Assembly (NCBI GenBank): GCA_001794825.1
Contig: MGLK01000019.1
Location: 32,657 to 96,656, forward strand
DNA length: 64,000 nt
Source of the DNA: Caulobacterales bacterium RIFCSPHIGHO2_01_FULL_70_19
GTDB lineage: Bacteria > Pseudomonadota > Alphaproteobacteria > Caulobacterales > Caulobacteraceae
Direction of reading: 5' to 3'
Within the stretch, counting starts at the first letter, position 1; each line of letters opens with the position of its first letter. Below the pieces are notes generated by a model. It did no database searches and had not been told where the DNA came from. It saw nothing but the letters and a program-made list of their open reading frames with translations. Positions 1,764 through 9,375 of this stretch are shown piece after piece. Both the position numbers and the translations under genes were made by a program.

Positions 1764-2840
1764 TCAGGCGGCGGAGGGCGCGGGCGAAGATTGGGGCGGA
1801 ATTCCGAGGTCCGGCCCGGCCGCCGGGGGGGGCGCGGCCGGCGTCGGCGACAGGTCCTCCACCGGCGAGACGTAGGCGGCCATGGCGTCGAACTCCTCAA
1901 GCAGCACGGCCCGCCTGTCGTCGGTCTCCATGATGACCTCGTGCCGGGCTCCCGCCACCTCGACGTAGCGGCCGCGTCCGAGCCGCTTGGCCGCCCACTT
2001 GTTGGTCTGTTTCCAGACCCGATCGTCGTCGGCGGCCTGCACTACGGCGACCGGAATCTTCACTGACTTCAGGGCCTTCGGCTTGAGGGCCCGTTCTCCG
2101 GCGTCGAGGGCGAACGCCAGCCAGCCCCAGGTGGGGCCGCCCACCGCCAGATGGGGGCAGGCGTAGAGCTGCTGCCGCCACTGTTCGTAGCGGGTCTCGT
2201 CGGAGGTGAGGGCGTCCTTGTCGAAGGTGTGATCGAACGGATCGTCCGGATCGTCGAGCACATAGTCGCCCGCCTTGCCGTGGCGCAGGTTCCAGCGCAC
2301 CGCCAGCTTGACCGACCATATCGAGCGCTTGCCGGTCTTGATGCGCAGCATCGGACTGGTCAGCAGCGCGCCGGAGAACCGATCCTCGCCGCCCTCGAGG
2401 GTGAGCAGGTTCAGGGTCGCGCCCATCGAGTGGCCGATCATGACCCAGGGCCGGGGCGCCCGCCCCTCGAAGGCCTCGAGCAGGCGGGCGTAGTCGTCGA
2501 CGAACTCCTCGACCGCCCGGGCGTGCCCCTTCAGCCGGTCGGGCAGCAGCCGGGCCGACAGTCCCTGGCCGCGCCAGTCGTGCGCCAGAACGCACCAGCC
2601 GCGCGCCAGCAGATTGCCGATCAGCTCGAAATACTTCTCGATCGGCTCCGTGCGCCCGGGGCTGACCACCACGGTTCCGCGGGGCTTTCGCGCCACCAGG
2701 GCCGACGGCGTCCAGAAGGCTGCCCGCAGGCGCAGACCGCCGGCGCCGCGGAACCACTCGCCCGCGCCGCCGGGCGGCGCCGAGGCGCCGGGAACCCCCA
2801 TCAGCGGGGCGTTTGCGGCGTAGGCGGCGGCTCGGCTCAC
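1764..2840 (-). CDS. Alpha/beta hydrolase (monoacylglycerol lipase / lysophospholipase-like, S33)
   Basis: A 358-residue alpha/beta hydrolase of the serine-aminopeptidase S33 group (hydrolase_4). The nucleophile elbow is GHSMG (Ser at about 138), with an HDWRGQGLS oxyanion-region motif near residue 88; the acid is likely in AADDDRVW (about 270) and the histidine in ARHEVI (about 300). This is the pattern of lysophospholipases and monoglyceride lipases; the real substrate is unknown. The last 30 or so residues are proline- and alanine-rich and probably disordered. The start is GTG at 2840, overlapping the stop of the upstream gene in GTGA, so the two are translationally coupled. An internal ATG at residue 14 is an alternative. 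Confidence 0.85.
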   Translation of the reverse strand: MSRAAAYAANAPLMGVPGASAPPGGAGEWFRGAGGLRLRAAFWTPSALVARKPRGTVVVSPGRTEPIEKYFELIGNLLARGWCVLAHDWRGQGLSARLLPDRLKGHARAVEEFVDDYARLLEAFEGRAPRPWVMIGHSMGATLNLLTLEGGEDRFSGALLTSPMLRIKTGKRSIWSVKLAVRWNLRHGKAGDYVLDDPDDPFDHTFDKDALTSDETRYEQWRQQLYACPHLAVGGPTWGWLAFALDAGERALKPKALKSVKIPVAVVQAADDDRVWKQTNKWAAKRLGRGRYVEVAGARHEVIMETDDRRAVLLEEFDAMAAYVSPVEDLSPTPAAPPPAAGPDLGIPPQSSPAPSAA

Positions 2841-3748
2841 TCGGGCTTCCTGAATCTCAAGGTCATGCGGTCGCTCTCGCCGATCTCGTCGTACTTCGCA
2901 CGATCGAAGGTCGGGTCGGGCGGCGAGCCCCGCGGCGCGGTCAGGCGCATGGGCGGCAGGGTGTCGACGCCGAACGGATGATCCTTGGTATCCCTTTCAT
3001 TGGCGTTGATTTCGGACGCCGCCACGAAGGCGAAGCCCGCCTCGGCCGCCAGCTGTCGCACGAACGCTTCCTGAACGTAGCCGTTCGCCGCCGCCGGATC
3101 CTGGTCCTCGTCCGGTCCCAGCCGGTGCTGCTCCACCCCGAGAACGCCGCCGGGCCGAAGCGCGGCCCAGGCGTCCGAGAAGGCCTTTTCGGCGATGCCG
3201 GCCGCCATCCACGCATGGATGTTGCGCATGAACAGGACCAGGTCGGCCGTGCCGGCGGGCGCGACCGGGCCCGAGGTCGGTCCGAAGGCGCTGAGTTCGA
3301 TGTCGCCGTACAGCGCGCGGTCCTTCGTGAAGCGCTCCTGGAAGGCGGCCATGAGGGCGACCTGGGCCGGATCGGCGCCGGGCCCTGTCTGGAAGCCGGC
3401 GGCGATGTACTTGCCGCCTCCTTCCGCGAGATAGGGGGCGAGAATCTCGGTGTACCAGCCGCTGCCCGGCCAGAAGTCGATGACGGTCATGCGCGGCTGC
3501 AGGCCGAAGAAGCGCAACGTCTCCATCGGATGCCGCCACAGGTCGCGGTCGCGATCCTGGGCCCGCCAGGGTCCCTCGACGGCCCACTCGAGCGAGCCCT
3601 TGGGCGGACCGGTCGGCTCGGGCGGCGGCTCGGCGGTCTCCTCGCGGCGTCCGCAGCCGGCGAGCGCCACGAAGGCGGCCGCCGCGGAGCCGGACAGAAC
3701 GCACCGGCGCGACGGCGTCAGGCGCCAACCGTCCAATTTCTCACCCAT
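2837..3748 (-). CDS. Exported class I SAM methyltransferase-like lipoprotein (COG4798 type)
   Basis: A 303-residue protein with an SRR twin-arginine-like N-terminus, a hydrophobic segment and a lipobox (VALAGC, Cys about 32), then a methyltransferase-like core: TVIDFWPGSGWYTEILAPYL (motif I, about 112-131), DLVLFMRNIHAW and LRPGGVLGVEQH. The GxGxG loop is altered to PGSGW, so catalytic activity is uncertain. The family is annotated as predicted methyltransferase and is frequently exported in alphaproteobacteria. It ends in YDEIGESDRMTLRFRKPE, almost identical to the C-terminus of the next upstream gene, its paralogue. Its stop overlaps the start of the alpha/beta hydrolase. Confidence 0.82.
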   Translation of the reverse strand: MGEKLDGWRLTPSRRCVLSGSAAAAFVALAGCGRREETAEPPPEPTGPPKGSLEWAVEGPWRAQDRDRDLWRHPMETLRFFGLQPRMTVIDFWPGSGWYTEILAPYLAEGGGKYIAAGFQTGPGADPAQVALMAAFQERFTKDRALYGDIELSAFGPTSGPVAPAGTADLVLFMRNIHAWMAAGIAEKAFSDAWAALRPGGVLGVEQHRLGPDEDQDPAAANGYVQEAFVRQLAAEAGFAFVAASEINANERDTKDHPFGVDTLPPMRLTAPRGSPPDPTFDRAKYDEIGESDRMTLRFRKPE

Positions 3749-3832: not shown

Positions 3833-4660
3833 TCAGCCCGGCTTGCGGAATCGCAGCGTCATGCGGTCGCTCTCGCCGATGGCGTCGTACTCGGCCCGTT
3901 CCGCATCGGTCAGCGGCGTCGGGCGGTCGGTGGCGACGTTGGCGCGGGGCGCGCTGACCCGGGTGGGCGGCAGCGTCCAGACGCCATACGGATGGTCGTG
4001 GTCGTCCGCCGGATTGGCGTTGATCTGGCTGCGGGCGTCCAGTTCGAACCCGGCCGCCCGGGCGGCGTGGATGACGTAGCTTTCGGACACGTAGCCGGTC
4101 GGCGCCGTCTCGTCGGGGTTCAGTCCCTCGGCGCTGCGGTGCTGCTCGATCGCCAGGACGCCGCCGGGCTTCAACGCCTTGAAGAAGGCCGCCATGTACG
4201 GCGCGGTCCGATCGCTGCGATGCCAGTTGTGCAGGGCGCGGGCGACGATGACCATGTCGGCCGTCCCGTCCTCGACGCCCATGCCTTCCAGGGGACGATT
4301 GACCGGGACATAGGTCCCGCCGGTGGCGGCGGCGTAGGGCTCGAGGATGTTGCGCCACCAGCCGGCCCGGCCCGGCTCGATCTCGACGACCGTGAGGCCG
4401 GGGCGCAGGCCCCAGAAGGTCAGGGTTTCGAACGGATGACGGAAGGCGTCGCGGGCGCGGTCCGCGGCGGGGCGGGTTTCGGAGGCGACGGCGGCCTGCA
4501 GGGCGGCGTCCTCCTGCAGCACCGGCGGGACCATGGCGGCGCGACGGGCGGCGCGCTGGCCCGGCGTCTCGTCGAGCGCGGGCAGGGCCGGGAACGCCTG
4601 GGCGGAGGCGACGGCCGGCAGGGCGAGCGCCGCGGCGGCGGCGAGGGCGAAGAGGCGCAT
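3833..4660 (-). CDS. Secreted class I SAM methyltransferase-like protein, paralogue of the downstream gene
   Basis: A 275-residue protein beginning with a standard Sec signal peptide (MRLFALAAAAALALPAVASA, cleavage after AxA). The core matches its neighbour: FRHPFETLTFWGLRPG, TVVEIEPGRAGWW, ILEPY, LKPGGVLAIEQHR and a final ESDRMTLRFRKPG. The start at 4660 is set by the signal peptide; an open frame continues upstream but has no sensible content. Motif I (VEIEPGRAGWW) departs from the consensus, so S-adenosylmethionine binding should be treated as unproved. Tandem duplication followed by divergence of the export signal (soluble here, lipid-anchored downstream) is the simplest reading. Substrate unknown. 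Confidence 0.82.
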   Translation of the reverse strand: MRLFALAAAAALALPAVASAQAFPALPALDETPGQRAARRAAMVPPVLQEDAALQAAVASETRPAADRARDAFRHPFETLTFWGLRPGLTVVEIEPGRAGWWRNILEPYAAATGGTYVPVNRPLEGMGVEDGTADMVIVARALHNWHRSDRTAPYMAAFFKALKPGGVLAIEQHRSAEGLNPDETAPTGYVSESYVIHAARAAGFELDARSQINANPADDHDHPYGVWTLPPTRVSAPRANVATDRPTPLTDAERAEYDAIGESDRMTLRFRKPG

Positions 4661-4751
4661 GGATCGGGCTCCGGACGAAAGGTTCGCAACCCTTAACGAG
4701 GCGAGACGCACGGGCAAGCCGCATCGTCGCCGCGAGACGGCGTGACGCGCC

Positions 4752-4779
4752 CTTGACGCGCCTCGAACAGCTCCCAAAT
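4752..4779 (+). promoter_or_regulatory. Possible sigma-32 heat-shock promoter for the small heat-shock gene
   Basis: CTTGAC at 4752-4757 is followed after 13 bases by CTCCCAAAT (4771-4779), which resembles the alphaproteobacterial sigma-32 pattern (CTTGA, then CCCATNT-like). It lies about 140 bases before the hsp20 start, leaving room for a long structured leader. The match at the -10 is imperfect. Confidence 0.35.
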
Positions 4780-4837
4780 CCTTGGTCGAGGACGCCGCTT
4801 CGGGTCCTCCGGAACGACCGGCGCCGGAATACGGGCC

Positions 4838-4919
4838 GGCCGGACCGAACTCCCACCGCCGGTCCGGGCTGAAACCGCGGGACCGGTTCAACCTTGCTGA
4901 TCCTCAGGAGGATGACATG
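4838..4919 (+). promoter_or_regulatory. ROSE-like RNA thermometer in the hsp20 leader
   Basis: The leader holds a perfect 8-bp hairpin (CCGGACCG at 4840-4847 with CGGTCCGG at 4860-4867) and, next to the start codon, TTGCT (4894-4898) facing the Shine-Dalgarno AGGAGGA (4906-4912). A TTGCT-type anti-Shine-Dalgarno strand in the last hairpin is the hallmark of ROSE elements, which melt on heating to permit translation of small heat-shock genes in alpha- and gammaproteobacteria. ATCC/GGAT can also close the same loop. The call is from sequence pattern; no folding was run. Confidence 0.65.
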
Positions 4920-5390
4920 CGTACCTATGACTTCTCGCCGCTCTACCGTTCGGCCGTCGGCTTCGACCGTCTGGCCAGCCTGCTCGAAAGCGCCGCGCGC
5001 ACGAGCCAGGAGAACGGCTGGCCGCCCTACAACATCGAGACCACGGGCGAGAACGCCTATCGCATCGAGATCGCCGTCGCCGGCTTCAAGCCCGACGAGC
5101 TGAACATCGAGGTGAAGGAGAACCTGCTCACGGTCACCGGCCGCAAGACCGCCAACGACGAGGGCGCCGGCGAGCGCCGGTTCCTGCACCGCGGCCTGGC
5201 CGAGCGCGACTTCGAGCGCCGCTTCCAGCTGGCCGACTACGTCGTCGTCAAGGGCGCCGATCTGGTCAACGGCCTGCTGTCGATCGAGCTGGCCCGCGAA
5301 CTGCCGGAGGCGCTGAAGCCGCGTCGTATCGAGATCGGCACGGGCTCCGGCCAGCCGCTGATCGAGGGCAAGAAGGCCAAGGCGGCCTGA
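4917..5390 (+). CDS. Small heat-shock protein, Hsp20/IbpA family
   Basis: A 157-residue class A small heat-shock protein of the alphaproteobacterial IbpA-like type. The alpha-crystallin domain covers about residues 37-130: [20 protein letters not shown] opens it and [11 protein letters not shown] follows. The C-terminus has RRIEI, the I-x-I anchor for oligomer assembly, at about residue 140. Such proteins are ATP-independent holdases that keep unfolded proteins soluble during heat stress. The ATG at 4917 sits 5 bases after AGGAGG and matches the family N-terminus ([19 protein letters not shown]). A strong terminator follows the gene, so it is monocistronic. Regulation is probably by sigma-32 plus the ROSE-like leader. 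Confidence 0.95.
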
Positions 5391-5449: not shown

Positions 5450-6682
5450 TCAGGCGGCTGCGGCCGGAGCCGGGGCCAGCGACAGGAGCTGACCCTCGTC
5501 GAGCGCGCCGGGGTCGATGCGGGCGCCCGAGACGTCGGCCCCGTCGAGCCGGACGCCGGCCAGGCTCGCGCCTTCGAGCCGGGCGTACCGGAGTCCGGCT
5601 CCGACCAGCATCGCCGGGGCGGTGCGGCCGCCGCCCAGCGGCAAGGGCTCCAGCAGGGCGCCGCGAAGATCCGCCTTGTGCAGCAGGGCGCGGCTCAGGC
5701 GCGCGGCGCGCAGGTCGGCCCCGCGCAGGTCGCAGCCGCGCAGGTCGGCGTCCTCGAGGCAGGCCCCCTGCAGCGCCACGCCGCGCAGGTCCATGCCCAC
5801 AAAACAGGCCCCGCGGCCGCTGAGACCGGGCAGTTTGAGATTGCGCAGCCGATCGCCGAGGGGGCGCAGGTCGGCGCCGTCGAAGTTGGCGGGTGAGCCA
5901 AGCACGCCGCCGCTTTCGGCCCAGGCGTTGGCGTCGAGCGCCCGCTCCAGCAGCACGGCCGCCTGCTCGACGGCCTCGCCGGAAGGAGTCCGCAAGGCGC
6001 CGGTGAGGTCGGCCCGCTCCGTCTGCGCCCGCTCGACCGCGACGCCCGTCAACACCGCGCCGCGCAGCTGGGCGCCGGCCAGGTTGGCCCCGTCGACGGC
6101 GGCGTCCTCGAGCAGGGCGCCGCTCAGGTTGGCGTCGCGCAGGTTGGCGCCGGTCAGCCGCGCGCCCTTCATCAGACAGTCGGAGAAATCGGCCCGGAAC
6201 GCGGTCACCCCGTCGAGCAGGGAGCCGTTGAGCGTCGCGCCGGCGAAGGTGGCCCCGTCGGCGACGCCGCGTCGGGTCTCGTGGCGCACCGCGGCCAGCC
6301 CCCGCGTGGCGTGCGGGACGGCCAGCACGCCTTCGCGGAAGTCGGCGCGGGTCAGGTCGGCGCCCATCAGGCTGGCTCCGCGCAGACAGGCGCCGCGCAG
6401 GTCGGCGCGGACGAGGCTGGCGCGACTGAAATCCGCCCCCCTCAGGTCGCAGCAGAACAGCACGGCGCCGTCCAGCCGAGCCTCGACGAGGCGGGCGTCC
6501 TCGAGCGCGCAGCCGGTGAAGTCGACGTCGCGCAGGTCGCGCCCCGAGAGGTCGAGGCCATTGAGTTCGGCGAACTTGAGCGACAGGCGGCGCCCGCCGG
6601 GACGGCCCGCCAGCAGCCGCTCGTGGGCGGCGACCAGGACGTCCAGCTCGCCCTGGCTCAAGGGCCGCCGGACGAAGGTCAT
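5450..6682 (-). CDS. Pentapeptide-repeat protein, second of a coupled pair
   Basis: A 410-residue protein made mainly of A(D/N)LXX pentapeptide repeats, which fold as a right-handed quadrilateral beta-helix. Repeat blocks lie at about residues 45-220 and 270-400, interrupted by a non-repeat stretch (AAVLLERALDANAWAESGG) that has a counterpart in the upstream gene. The first 35 residues (ELDVLVAAHERLLAGRPGG) are helical and also shared. The ATG at 6682 overlaps the stop of the upstream gene in ATGA. No enzymatic motif is visible. Some pentapeptide proteins mimic DNA and protect gyrase (Qnr, MfpA), but these have no added helical domains; a scaffold or binding role is equally possible. Confidence 0.88.
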   Translation of the reverse strand: MTFVRRPLSQGELDVLVAAHERLLAGRPGGRRLSLKFAELNGLDLSGRDLRDVDFTGCALEDARLVEARLDGAVLFCCDLRGADFSRASLVRADLRGACLRGASLMGADLTRADFREGVLAVPHATRGLAAVRHETRRGVADGATFAGATLNGSLLDGVTAFRADFSDCLMKGARLTGANLRDANLSGALLEDAAVDGANLAGAQLRGAVLTGVAVERAQTERADLTGALRTPSGEAVEQAAVLLERALDANAWAESGGVLGSPANFDGADLRPLGDRLRNLKLPGLSGRGACFVGMDLRGVALQGACLEDADLRGCDLRGADLRAARLSRALLHKADLRGALLEPLPLGGGRTAPAMLVGAGLRYARLEGASLAGVRLDGADVSGARIDPGALDEGQLLSLAPAPAAAA

Positions 6683-7965
6683 TCGGCCGCCTGCAGCGCG
6701 GGCGAGGCGGCCTCGAACCCGCGGGCCCCGCGCGTCGTCGCCCCGGACATGGCGGCGCCCTTGAGGCAGGCGCCGCGCAGGGTGGTTCGCGTCAGGTCGG
6801 CGTCGACCAGGCAGGCCCGCTTCAGGTCGGCCCCGGACAGGTCGGCCCCCTTCAGGCATGCGCCGGTCAGGTCGGCGGGCAGCACCCGGTCGCCGGCGAT
6901 CAGCAAGGGCCCGAGCTGGGCTTCGCGAAGGTCGGCGCCGTTGAGCCGTGCGCGCGCCAGTCTTGCGCCCCGCAGATCGGCGCCCCGGAGGTTGGCCGAG
7001 CGGAGGTCGGCCTCCTCGAGGTGCGCCCCCTGCAACTGCACCCCCTGCATATCCAGGCCGTAGAAGACCGCGCCCTTGGCCGACAGCGCCGTCAGATTGT
7101 AGCCGCGGATCGAGCCGAGGGCGCGCAGGTCGACGCCGTCGAACACCGACGGCCGGCCCGACGCCCCTCCGGTCTCGCACCACTGGGCGTGCTCCGCCAG
7201 CATCTCGGCGGCCGGCATCTTGCCCACCGGCGCGCCCGCCGACCGATTGTCGGTCAGGGCTCCCGTCATGTCGGCGCCGTCGGTCCGCCACAGGGTGGCC
7301 TTGACCCCGACCAGCACGGCGTCGCGCAGGTCGGCCCCCGACAGGTCGGCGCCCGAGAGATCGGCGCCGGCGAGGTCCGCGCCCTTGAAGCTGGCCTGCT
7401 TGAGGTTGGCCCGGACCAGCTTGCAGTCCTTCATCACCGCGTCGGAGAAGTCCGCCGCCACGGCCACCACCCCGGTCAGCTTGGACCGCTCGAGGTTGGC
7501 GCCGGCGAGGCAGGCGCCCTGGGCCTCGGTCTCCCTCTGCTGCCGCGCCTCGATGACGCGGAACCCGAGGCGGGCGTCGGCGGCGGCTATGGTCCCCTCG
7601 CGCAGGTCGGCCTCGAACAGATCGGCCCCGGTCAGGTCGGCGCCGCGCAGGCAGGCGCCGCGGAGGTCGGCGCGCCGCATGGAGGCGTCGACCAGGATGG
7701 CCTCCTGCATGTCCGCGCCGAAGAAGGTGGCGTTGTCGAGCTTGGCGCCCGTCAGATCGCAGCCGATCAGGCAGGCCGCGGCGAAGTCGGCGTCGGCGAG
7801 GTTGCGACCGGCCAGCGACAGGCCCGACAGGTCCATCCAGGCGAAGACGGCGCGGGCGCCCCCGGGGCGGGCCTGCCACAGCCGGTCGTGCCGGGCGCAG
7901 ATGGCGTCCAGCTCGGCCTGTTCGATGCGCCTTCTGGCGACGGTCTGCGCGGCGGTCCCCGACAT
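6679..7965 (-). CDS. Pentapeptide-repeat protein, first of a coupled pair
   Basis: A 428-residue paralogue of the gene that follows it. A helical N-terminal segment (QAELDAICARHDRLWQARPGG, about 16-36) leads into pentapeptide repeats at about residues 45-125 and 148-245, then an interruption at about 250-285 (EMLAEHAQWCETGG) and a second beta-helix block to about 405. Long runs of ADLSG/ADLRG are typical. No signal peptide or membrane segment is visible, so it is likely cytoplasmic. The two genes share the same domain order and are linked by an ATGA overlap, which suggests a hetero-dimer made in equal amounts. Function is not known. Confidence 0.88.
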   Translation of the reverse strand: MSGTAAQTVARRRIEQAELDAICARHDRLWQARPGGARAVFAWMDLSGLSLAGRNLADADFAAACLIGCDLTGAKLDNATFFGADMQEAILVDASMRRADLRGACLRGADLTGADLFEADLREGTIAAADARLGFRVIEARQQRETEAQGACLAGANLERSKLTGVVAVAADFSDAVMKDCKLVRANLKQASFKGADLAGADLSGADLSGADLRDAVLVGVKATLWRTDGADMTGALTDNRSAGAPVGKMPAAEMLAEHAQWCETGGASGRPSVFDGVDLRALGSIRGYNLTALSAKGAVFYGLDMQGVQLQGAHLEEADLRSANLRGADLRGARLARARLNGADLREAQLGPLLIAGDRVLPADLTGACLKGADLSGADLKRACLVDADLTRTTLRGACLKGAAMSGATTRGARGFEAASPALQAAE

Positions 7966-7980
7966 TGCGCCAGAATGGCA

Positions 7981-8000
7981 CGGTTCCGCTTAAGGAACCG
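7981..8000. other. Perfect inverted repeat between the deaminase and pentapeptide genes
   Basis: CGGTTCC (7981-7987) and GGAACCG (7994-8000) form a perfect 7-bp stem with a 6-base loop. It lies 16 bases before the start codon of the first pentapeptide gene and downstream of the RibD-like stop. There is no T tract, so it could be an operator or leader hairpin rather than a terminator. Confidence 0.45.
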
Positions 8001-8015
8001 TTCCCGACCGGCGGT

Positions 8016-8654
8016 TCAGGCGGTCAGCAGACCCTGCTCGGCGAGGGCGTCGGCGAGTTCGCCCGGCGCCACCCACAGACGCGTGTAGCCGGCCTCTCCG
8101 AGGCGCTTCAGCTCGGTGCCCAGATCGGCCTTGGGCGAGGCGGCGAAGCGGGCGTCGAAGCCGTCGCCGTCGTCGCTGACGCGGACCATCGGCCGGCCGG
8201 TCTCGACCCGGTGCAGGTAGCCCTCGTAGAGCACCGCCGCCTCCTGGGCGAGCAGGCCGGTTTCGACCTGCAGGCCCGCCTTCTCCAGCCGCTCCATGCC
8301 GCGCCCGGAGGCGAAGGGCGACGGATCCACGGCAGCGATCACCACCCGCGTCACGCCGGCGTCGATCAGGAAGTGGGAGCAGGAGGTGCGGCCCGAGGAG
8401 CGGGCGCCGCAGGGCTCCATGGTGACGTAGGCGACGGCCCCCCTGGCCCGGTCGCCGGCGGCGGGCACGGCCTGCTCCTCGGCGTGCGGGCGGCCGCCCG
8501 GGGCGGTGGCGGCCTCGGCGATCAGCTCGCCGTCGCGGGCGATGACGCAGCCGACCGCGGGGTTGGGCCAGGTCTGCCCCATGCGGGCCCTGGCCAAGGC
8601 GATGGCCCGGCCCATGAAGCGGATGTCGTCGGAGACCTGCTTCGGGCTGGTCAT
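8016..8654 (-). CDS. RibD-like deaminase, deaminase domain only
   Basis: A 212-residue protein of the cytidine/deoxycytidylate deaminase fold, most like the N-terminal domain of RibD (pyrimidine deaminase of riboflavin synthesis). Zinc ligands are His57 in RPHAEEQA, Cys82 in TMEPCGA and Cys92; Glu59 is the proton shuttle. The proper RibD signature (LEPCSHxGxTPPC) is changed to MEPCGARSSGRTSC. Full-length RibD proteins have about 360 residues and carry a reductase domain; here only about 65 residues follow the deaminase. It may be a stand-alone deaminase or a specialised paralogue. It starts one base after the gpmA stop, so the two share a transcript. Confidence 0.78.
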   Translation of the reverse strand: MTSPKQVSDDIRFMGRAIALARARMGQTWPNPAVGCVIARDGELIAEAATAPGGRPHAEEQAVPAAGDRARGAVAYVTMEPCGARSSGRTSCSHFLIDAGVTRVVIAAVDPSPFASGRGMERLEKAGLQVETGLLAQEAAVLYEGYLHRVETGRPMVRVSDDGDGFDARFAASPKADLGTELKRLGEAGYTRLWVAPGELADALAEQGLLTA

Positions 8655-8655
8655 G

Positions 8656-9375
8656 TCAGGCTTCCGGAAGCGGCGGCAGGGGCTGGGCCCGGTCGGCGTC
8701 GAGATAGCGGGCGGCGGTCGGCCGCAGCTCGCCGTCGAGATCGATCTCCAGCGGATTGCCGGTCGGGATCTCGACGCCGACGATGGCGTCGTCCGGCACC
8801 CGGAACAGCAGCTTGACGATCGCGCGCAGCGAGTTGCCGTGGGCGGCGATCAGCACGTTCTCGCCGGCCTTCAGCCGCGGCGCGATTTCGGCGTCCCAGT
8901 AGGGCTGCACCCGGTCCAGCGTGGTCTTCAGGCTTTCGGTGTCCGGGATGGTCTGGCCGGCGTAGCGCGGGTCCGAGGCGAAGTCGTACTCGCCGCCGGC
9001 GGCCAGCGGCGGCGGCGGCACGTCGTAGCTGCGCCGCCAGATCTTCACCTGGTCCGCCCCGTGCTTCTCGGCGGTTTCCGCCTTGTTCAGCCCGGTGAGG
9101 CCGCCGTAGTGGCGCTCGTTCAGACGCCAGTCCTCGACCACCGGCACGTCCTTCAGCCCGGCGGAGTCCAGCGCCAGCGCCCCGGTGCGCTTCGCCCGGG
9201 TCAGCACCGAGGTGAACATCACATCCGGCCGGAAGCCCGCCTCCGCGATCAGCTCGCCGCCCCGCCGCGCCTGGGCCTCGCCCTCGGCGGTCAGGTCGAC
9301 GTCGACCCAGCCGGTGAAGCGGTTCTCCAGGTTCCACTGGCTCTGGCCGTGGCGCAGCAGGATCAGTCGGGGCAT
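8656..9375 (-). CDS. gpmA: 2,3-bisphosphoglycerate-dependent phosphoglycerate mutase
   Basis: A 239-residue cofactor-dependent phosphoglycerate mutase that interconverts 3- and 2-phosphoglycerate in glycolysis. The catalytic RHGQSQWN (His8 as phospho-histidine) is at residues 7-14, followed by NRFTGWVDVDLT; further family motifs are WRLNERHYGGLTG (about 88-100) and AAHGNSLRAI (second histidine, about 180). Length is normal for GpmA. The start ATG is unambiguous because the phosphohistidine motif begins at residue 7. It is the first gene of a two-gene unit with the RibD-like deaminase and is divergent from the phosphomannomutase gene, with 180 bases between. Confidence 0.95.
   Translation of the reverse strand: MPRLILLRHGQSQWNLENRFTGWVDVDLTAEGEAQARRGGELIAEAGFRPDVMFTSVLTRAKRTGALALDSAGLKDVPVVEDWRLNERHYGGLTGLNKAETAEKHGADQVKIWRRSYDVPPPPLAAGGEYDFASDPRYAGQTIPDTESLKTTLDRVQPYWDAEIAPRLKAGENVLIAAHGNSLRAIVKLLFRVPDDAIVGVEIPTGNPLEIDLDGELRPTAARYLDADRAQPLPPLPEA

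Follow-up and report, generated by a model that had tools for sequence, protein, structure and literature searches.

Two pentapeptide-repeat proteins, A and B, encoded in tandem on a Brevundimonas chromosome, belong to a large, unnamed, class-wide family of two-cap pentapeptide-repeat proteins (PRPs), and their architecture is not special to the pair. Each chain is likely, if not proven, to be a tandem of two units that each consist of a helical cap and a beta-helix, with the non-repeat insert between the two repeat blocks probably a degenerate second copy of the N-terminal cap. A and B are not an obligate pair, and among the four faces of block 1a (the first part of the first repeat block in A) a single Asp/Arg face is by far the most conserved and may serve for docking.

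Two paralogous genes under purifying selection

The two genes occupy positions 5450-7965 on the minus strand of the window (the whole 64,000-nucleotide stretch of DNA analyzed), which is part of a Brevundimonas chromosome (genome G000, contig C19; 2.92 Mb). Both this placement and the ATGA overlap of the genes, which a preliminary description of the DNA had reported, are correct. The features of the locus are as follows:

6679..7965, minus strand: PRP-A (A), 428 aa, likely two-unit pentapeptide-repeat protein (sequence; Pfam; AlphaFold2, pLDDT 86.6, pTM 0.77)
5450..6682, minus strand: PRP-B (B), 410 aa, paralogue of A (sequence; Pfam; AlphaFold2, pLDDT 93.8, pTM 0.88)
6679..6682, minus strand: four bases, ATGA, in which the stop codon of A (TGA) and the start codon of B (ATG) overlap (sequence; the forward strand reads TCAT)
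8016..8654, minus strand: RibD-like deaminase, upstream of A (PF00383; synteny)
8656..9375, minus strand: gpmA-like phosphoglycerate mutase, upstream of A (PF00300; synteny)
4926..5390, plus strand: small heat-shock protein Hsp20, convergent on B (PF00011; synteny)
7976..7997, minus strand: conserved element TTCCTTAAGC...GTGCCA just 5' of A, probable promoter of A (sequence)

A and B share 46% identity along their full length. Both matched the Pfam pentapeptide families (E of 1e-58 for A and 6e-50 for B), with 194.3 and 166.8 bits, respectively, against PF00805 at a gathering cut-off of 20.2, which places them in this superfamily; the decapeptide model was matched weakly, under its cut-off, and no Pfam domain other than pentapeptide or decapeptide repeats was found in either protein. 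Pairwise comparisons indicated purifying selection on both genes, with dN/dS of 0.09-0.20 for A (four pairs) and 0.08-0.32 for B (three pairs). The identity between the two proteins, their Pfam matches and this selection together indicate that their design is not due to chance. In a search against PADLOC anti-phage defence models, neither protein matched at E 0.01.

By eye, neither protein begins with a Sec signal: A starts with MSGTAAQTVARRRIEQAELD and B with MTFVRRPLSQGELD, both charged and without a hydrophobic stretch. In this they differ from YjbI/PerA (CCNA_01968) of Caulobacter crescentus, also a Caulobacterales pentapeptide-repeat protein, which the available part of its report describes as a 183-aa outer-membrane protein with a Sec signal (PMC12864828); the secreted YjbI/PerA is a different protein from A and B. 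Another Caulobacter PRP, CC_0350, has been described as well (PMC3073932, available part), and the genome of the window carries a separate, secreted-looking PRP elsewhere (L122:3167-4057).

Upstream of A, the TTCCTTAAGC...GTGCCA element is at its sole exact match in its own genome, and a TTAA-bearing element akin to TTCCTTAAGC sits 5' of most orthologues. A strict regular expression for the element matched 28 of 80 upstream regions, a few of which were mis-cut at a B start; by eye, many of the non-matching regions carry a TTCCTTAA/TTAAC core. We also considered a hairpin 5' of A, where the window holds a perfect inverted repeat, yet a perfect repeat of at least 7 bp occurs in just 6 of 69 relatives. 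Thus, we take the hairpin to be a chance feature and the TTCCTTAAGC element to be the conserved part.

Predicted architecture of two capped beta-helix segments

The AlphaFold2 models of A (113-row alignment, which excludes a shortened A, L206) and B (50-row alignment) agree with the common design that the preliminary description had read from the letters, namely a helical N-terminus running into RPGG (residues 33-36 of A and 27-30 of B), a pentapeptide block, a non-repeat insert and a second block. In both models, a cap helix (A16-30, B10-24) is predicted to lead through a glycine turn into a four-sided beta-helix with a strand every five residues, in keeping with a quadrilateral beta-helix, and a helix in the insert (A252-264, B235-256) is predicted to open the second block. 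Block 1 is broken by an excursion that is of low confidence in A and strand-rich in B. When the A model was used as a Foldseek query, the top matches were all pentapeptide structures (HetL, beta1 designs, QnrB1, MfpA and AlbG). The predicted parts of the two chains map to the window as follows:

7828..7926, minus strand: A N-terminal cap, spanning residues 14-46 with a helix at 16-30 followed by RPGG-x-R (AlphaFold2, conservation; isolated segment without a Pfam match)
7594..7830, minus strand: A beta-helix block 1a, made of four coils over residues 46-124, with D100/R102/D120/R122 on one face (AlphaFold2, face conservation)
7516..7593, minus strand: A loop excursion from block 1, residues 125-150, low confidence (pLDDT 50-53 over 131-150)
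7252..7515, minus strand: A beta-helix block 1b, residues 151-238 (AlphaFold2, face conservation)
7123..7233, minus strand: A insert, spanning residues 245-281, a probable second cap with a helix at 252-264 and WCETGG (AlphaFold2, profile comparison; no Pfam match)
6736..7122, minus strand: A second beta-helix block, residues 282-410; short excursion 353-365 (AlphaFold2, face conservation)
6563..6661, minus strand: B N-terminal cap, spanning residues 8-40 with a helix at 10-24 (AlphaFold2; isolated segment without a Pfam match)
5999..6562, minus strand: B first beta-helix block, residues 41-228; strand-rich excursion near 118-137 (AlphaFold2)
5864..5980, minus strand: B insert, spanning residues 235-273, a probable second cap with a helix at 235-256 and WAESGG (AlphaFold2; no Pfam match)
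5507..5863, minus strand: B second beta-helix block, residues 274-392 (AlphaFold2)

The insert is present in both proteins, but its signature had been spelt E-W-x-E-x-GG, and no fixed E precedes the W: the sequence is EHAQWCETGG in A and DANAWAESGG in B, leaving W-x-E-[ST]-G-G as the common string. Across 105 relatives, a set cleared of duplicates and of chains that were truncated at an end, contained internal stops or exceeded 520 aa, the near-invariant residues (A numbering) are H26, R28, G35, G36 and R38 in the cap and W262, G267, G270, D279 and R281 in the insert.

Searched as domains in their own right, the isolated in-frame cap and insert segments match nothing in Pfam, and a PDB search with the isolated cap returned nothing relevant (best E 0.26). 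We rejected as improbable the idea that the insert is a foreign domain, given that it has no Pfam match and resembles the cap. This resemblance was seen by profile comparison of 82 diverse relatives, in which hhalign joined cap and insert over 29 columns with a probability of 92.9 and a single-comparison E of 3.6e-7, a score that none of 300 column shuffles reached (27.3 versus at most 14.5). In a narrower Caulobacterales set, the probability was 48 and 0 of 200 shuffles matched the score. At the level of single chains, a cap-only HMM found the insert in 1 of 83, with four further hits elsewhere, and the reverse search with an insert HMM found the cap in 12 of 83 (shuffled: 0 of 415); a combined cap and insert HMM was circular and was set aside. 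As the cap HMM is weak on single sequences, the proposed duplication of the cap rests on the profile-profile comparison.

A class-wide family

We determined how widely this architecture is distributed using a 28-row family profile of full length (~420 aa), which A and B match at 4.7e-179 and 3.2e-158 by construction, both being rows of the profile. Of 385 alphaproteobacterial genomes, 130 matched at E 1e-40; these represent 92 of 276 genera, and many carry multiple copies. In a phylum-wide draw, the 20 matching genomes (out of 397) were all Alphaproteobacteria. A itself was matched at 1e-25 in 123 of 298 genomes of the order and is near-core in the genus (34 of 37 genomes). Thirteen plasmid records matched, 12 of them from Azospirillum. 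There was no match among phages at 1e-15, and viral contigs gave two matches only, the best by rank at 37%. A literature search that covered its sources in part returned no published study of the two-cap architecture.

With the PF00805/PF13599/PF13576 superfamily, A and B share the A[DN]LxG repeat signature and the quadrilateral beta-helix; they differ from it in having two blocks, each placed after a like helical cap for which Pfam has no model. The best solved-structure matches in fold and sequence, HetL (PDB 3du1) and the designed beta1 solenoids (4yc5 and variants), are single-block proteins of ~240 residues with no second cap, unlike A and B, and the NCBIfam HetL cut-off of 260 was missed by both proteins (A 151.8, B 121.1). 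For the Alr5209 family (NCBIfam NF052603, cut-off 125), A scored above the cut-off (141.6) and B just below it (123.7). However, this model is short (113 positions), is made of plain repeats and was matched in five stretches of A and seven of B; we therefore attribute the hit to repeat character and not to whole-protein kinship.

A and B are not an obligate pair

From the overlap of the two genes, the preliminary description had suggested a paired complex, which, as a conserved unit, is not supported once co-occurrence is examined: the failure to co-occur that the description itself named as a refutation is largely what we see. Amongst 79 Brevundimonas loci, named or metagenomic, with enough sequence to judge (one further locus was too short), B follows A in 34 and is absent directly downstream in 45. 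Across the 37 genomes of the genus, A occurs in 34 and B in 16; 15 contain both, 19 contain A only, one contains B only (G013, 100% complete) and two contain neither (G005, 66% completeness, and G034, 90%). On a tree of A with 80 rows, the presence of B changes state at least eight times. In probable Caulobacter (four loci fetched), B lies ~100 bp downstream of A with no overlap, and each gene has its own TTAA-bearing upstream region. As these loci also carry B, its absence elsewhere is most simply explained by loss from a pair present in the ancestor.

The phylogeny of the wider family likewise speaks against an obligatory complex. In a tree of 83 rows, for which the L267 and L270 proteins were recovered by tblastn and L117 was left out, B groups with other Caulobacterales paralogues and f3 proteins (100/99), and A and the remaining alphaproteobacterial proteins fall apart from this group; the A and B clades are separate, well supported and each spread over several genera. 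An obligatory hetero-complex of A and B would agree with the ATGA overlap in the genome of the window and with how closely B follows A where it is present in Brevundimonas, but it is unlikely in view of the many loci and genomes with A only, the complete genome with B only, the gap and separate upstream regions in probable Caulobacter, and the two separate clades. On this distribution, we rejected the obligate pair.

Charge and a conserved face

The fold of A and B is that of MfpA, Qnr and AlbG, and loop excursions occur in both, which raises the question of a DNA mimic that binds gyrase or topoisomerase and protects or modulates gyrase as these proteins do. According to the available part of one report, gyrase-inhibitor PRPs are typically negative on the outside and dimeric via C-terminal helices (PMC10886550); A and B differ in being near neutral (A: pI 5.65, net -4; B: pI 5.94, net -3), about twice as long, and equipped with an internal helical cap. 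The charge per face, computed for A alone, lies between -3 and +2, and the f3 lineage is basic in four of four. Both proteins also missed, by a wide margin, the NCBIfam cut-offs for Qnr (240; A 74.3, B 59.0) and MfpA (360; A 102.6, B 82.5), which, alongside the unmatched cap and insert segments, upholds the earlier statement that these segments are foreign to Qnr and MfpA. The near-neutral net charge and the missed cut-offs together tend to speak against a DNA mimic, and we consider gyrase protection quite unlikely.

What A and its relatives do conserve is one side of block 1a. Across 83 diverse relatives, the outward positions of face 4 carry 3.2-3.6 bits, compared with 1.3-2.4 bits on the other three faces, and in weighted counts R102, D120 and R122 are invariant and D100 is conserved at 98%. 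This Asp/Arg face may be a docking face or it may be a purely structural salt-bridge ladder. We infer docking and a binding surface here, and give even odds to a reading in which both proteins act in the cytosol as docking rods, without enzymatic activity and with one Asp/Arg face. As such a rod, each chain would comprise two right-handed quadrilateral beta-helix segments in tandem, each opened by a short helix and a glycine turn that would seal the hydrophobic core, with the N-terminal cap sealing the first segment and its degenerate second copy, mid-chain, sealing the second. One or more partner proteins would be bound mainly via the first-segment face formed by the almost invariant D100, R102, D120 and R122, with further contacts through the loops that leave the rod at residues 125-150 and 353-365 of A. 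A would be a core protein of Caulobacteraceae and their relatives, and B would be an old tandem paralogue, many times lost, that modifies or duplicates the role of A and completes no obligatory complex.

Several observations favor a docking rod: the predicted fold of both chains, in which Pfam recognizes repeats only; the profile likeness of cap and insert; the conservation of face 4; N-termini that are not signal-like; the core standing of A in the genus and its wide occurrence in the order and class; and the repeated changes in the presence of B. The salt-bridge alternative weighs against it, as do the failure of the cap-only HMM to find the insert in most single sequences and the strong differences in gene neighborhood between lineages, which give no single partner.

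Gene neighborhoods across lineages

At Caulobacterales A loci outside the genus, the fetched region contained gpmA in 16 of 16 cases and hsp20 in 15 of 16. We then collected 40 loci from the class, hand-picked from the best-ranked hits and not random, and found pgi within 4 kb in 11 (eight families), mutL beside the PRP gene in nine, overlapping it by four bases in two, and hsp20 within 4 kb in seven. All three Azospirillum loci examined have a histidine kinase gene directly upstream of the PRP gene and gpmA 4.7-7.1 kb away. Third paralogues adjoin CorA (three loci) or CHAP (two loci) genes, and f3 loci have none of the neighbors seen in the window (four of four). Pfam families of neighbors were tallied for 37 of the 59 proteins on the upstream side and 37 of the 59 on the downstream side, leaving out very short neighbors and nearly all Caulobacterales and Azospirillum ones, and the neighbors of L267, L270 and L117 are unreliable, as the PRP strand was mis-called at these loci. 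With no neighboring gene constant across lineages, one dedicated operon partner appears less likely.

The recurrence of gpmA, at every Caulobacterales A locus fetched outside the genus and every Azospirillum locus examined, and of pgi across eight families would agree with a regulator or scaffold of central metabolism that acts on phosphoglucose isomerase and phosphoglycerate mutase. We nonetheless hold this role to be improbable: conserved gene order may reflect mere inheritance, other members adjoin CorA, CHAP, histidine kinase or cyclase genes, f3 loci lack the neighbors found in the window, and the category was picked after looking. Similarly, the mutL and histidine kinase neighbors recall MfpA, which is reported, in the part of the source available, to target the GyrB ATPase domain (PMC10886550), and could by analogy suggest that these proteins regulate ATPases of the GHKL type, such as MutL and histidine kinases; however, this is an argument from analogy alone, no GHKL gene adjoins A or B in Caulobacterales, and we regard such a role as highly unlikely. 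A broader reading, to which we also assign a rather low probability, is that of a class-wide scaffold family docking on Pgi and GpmA via the invariant Asp/Arg face, whose lineage-specific paralogues, such as B, would have been retargeted to other partners, including GHKL ATPases. If this reading were correct, the pentapeptide fold would gain a function not seen in it before.

A putative Caulobacter crescentus orthologue and significance for the family

The small heat-shock protein sHSP1 of C. crescentus is encoded by CCNA_02341/CC_2258 (PMC8119881, PMC3751524, available parts). The available part of another report lists CCNA_02342 as a 'hypothetical protein with pentapeptide repeats' that is 2.1-fold down on pulse expression of the sRNA RusT, and its gfp-fusion table gives the fusion of this gene from -35, which implies a separate transcription start for the putative B (PMC11005374). 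The locus number of CCNA_02342 adjoins that of sHSP1, matching the A-B-hsp20 order in probable Caulobacter, and from gene order, not sequence, we infer that this gene is orthologous to B.

Among the very many pentapeptide-repeat proteins, few have a known role; Qnr and MfpA are the best known and dominate thinking on the pentapeptide fold. Here, a defined sub-architecture, with two capped segments per chain, is found in about one-third of sampled alphaproteobacterial genomes and is near-core in one genus. Concrete candidate partners come from two gene orders, pgi-PRP-mutL and gpmA-PRP-hsp20, and the putative orthologue in the genetically tractable C. crescentus would make many 'pentapeptide repeat-containing protein' annotations testable.

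Pentapeptide-repeat genes and their neighbours

Besides PRP-A and PRP-B, the neighbouring two-unit pentapeptide-repeat proteins, the source genome encodes a single pentapeptide-repeat protein at an E-value of 1e-5 (L122:3167-4057, contig C3), which carries a Sec-like N-terminus and CxxC and in these respects resembles the secreted YjbI type. The reading frame of PRP-B continues without stops across all of PRP-A, giving an 843-aa ORF (5450-7981, minus strand), and several relatives have comparable open frames of 814-970 aa; we take the 843-aa frame to be a high-GC shadow frame.

Beyond hsp20 lie two mutually similar proteins, kept there in most Caulobacteraceae loci when the synteny of the fetched loci was compared:

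2837-3748, minus strand, first protein of the pair
3833-4891, minus strand, second protein of the pair

Neither matched Pfam at 1e-3; to the eye, both look methyltransferase-like. The Brevundimonas locus is present in L159, a record titled Bordetella sp. that is probably a mislabelled metagenome bin.

Across several alphaproteobacterial families, the gene order pgi, pentapeptide-repeat gene, mutL was observed at eight loci (L246, L253, L255, L263, L267, L272, L275 and L279). At L254, L257 and L261, a gene of ~510 aa follows the pentapeptide-repeat paralogue, the L254 copy being 91% identical to those of L257 and L261, and these genes are the probable source of the three guanylate-cyclase domain matches among neighbours.

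Transcription of PRP-A

Immediately 5' of the PRP-A start codon lies one further element:

7976-7997, minus strand, TTCCTTAAGC...GTGCCA

A search of the source genome found no exact copy other than this one, and comparison of upstream regions showed that similar TTAA-bearing elements precede PRP-A in the majority of relatives. Judged from sequence, the element is probably a promoter of PRP-A. In Brevundimonas sp. Root1279 (L137), PRP-A is inverted relative to gpmA, ribD and hsp20; therefore, its co-transcription with these neighbours is not required.
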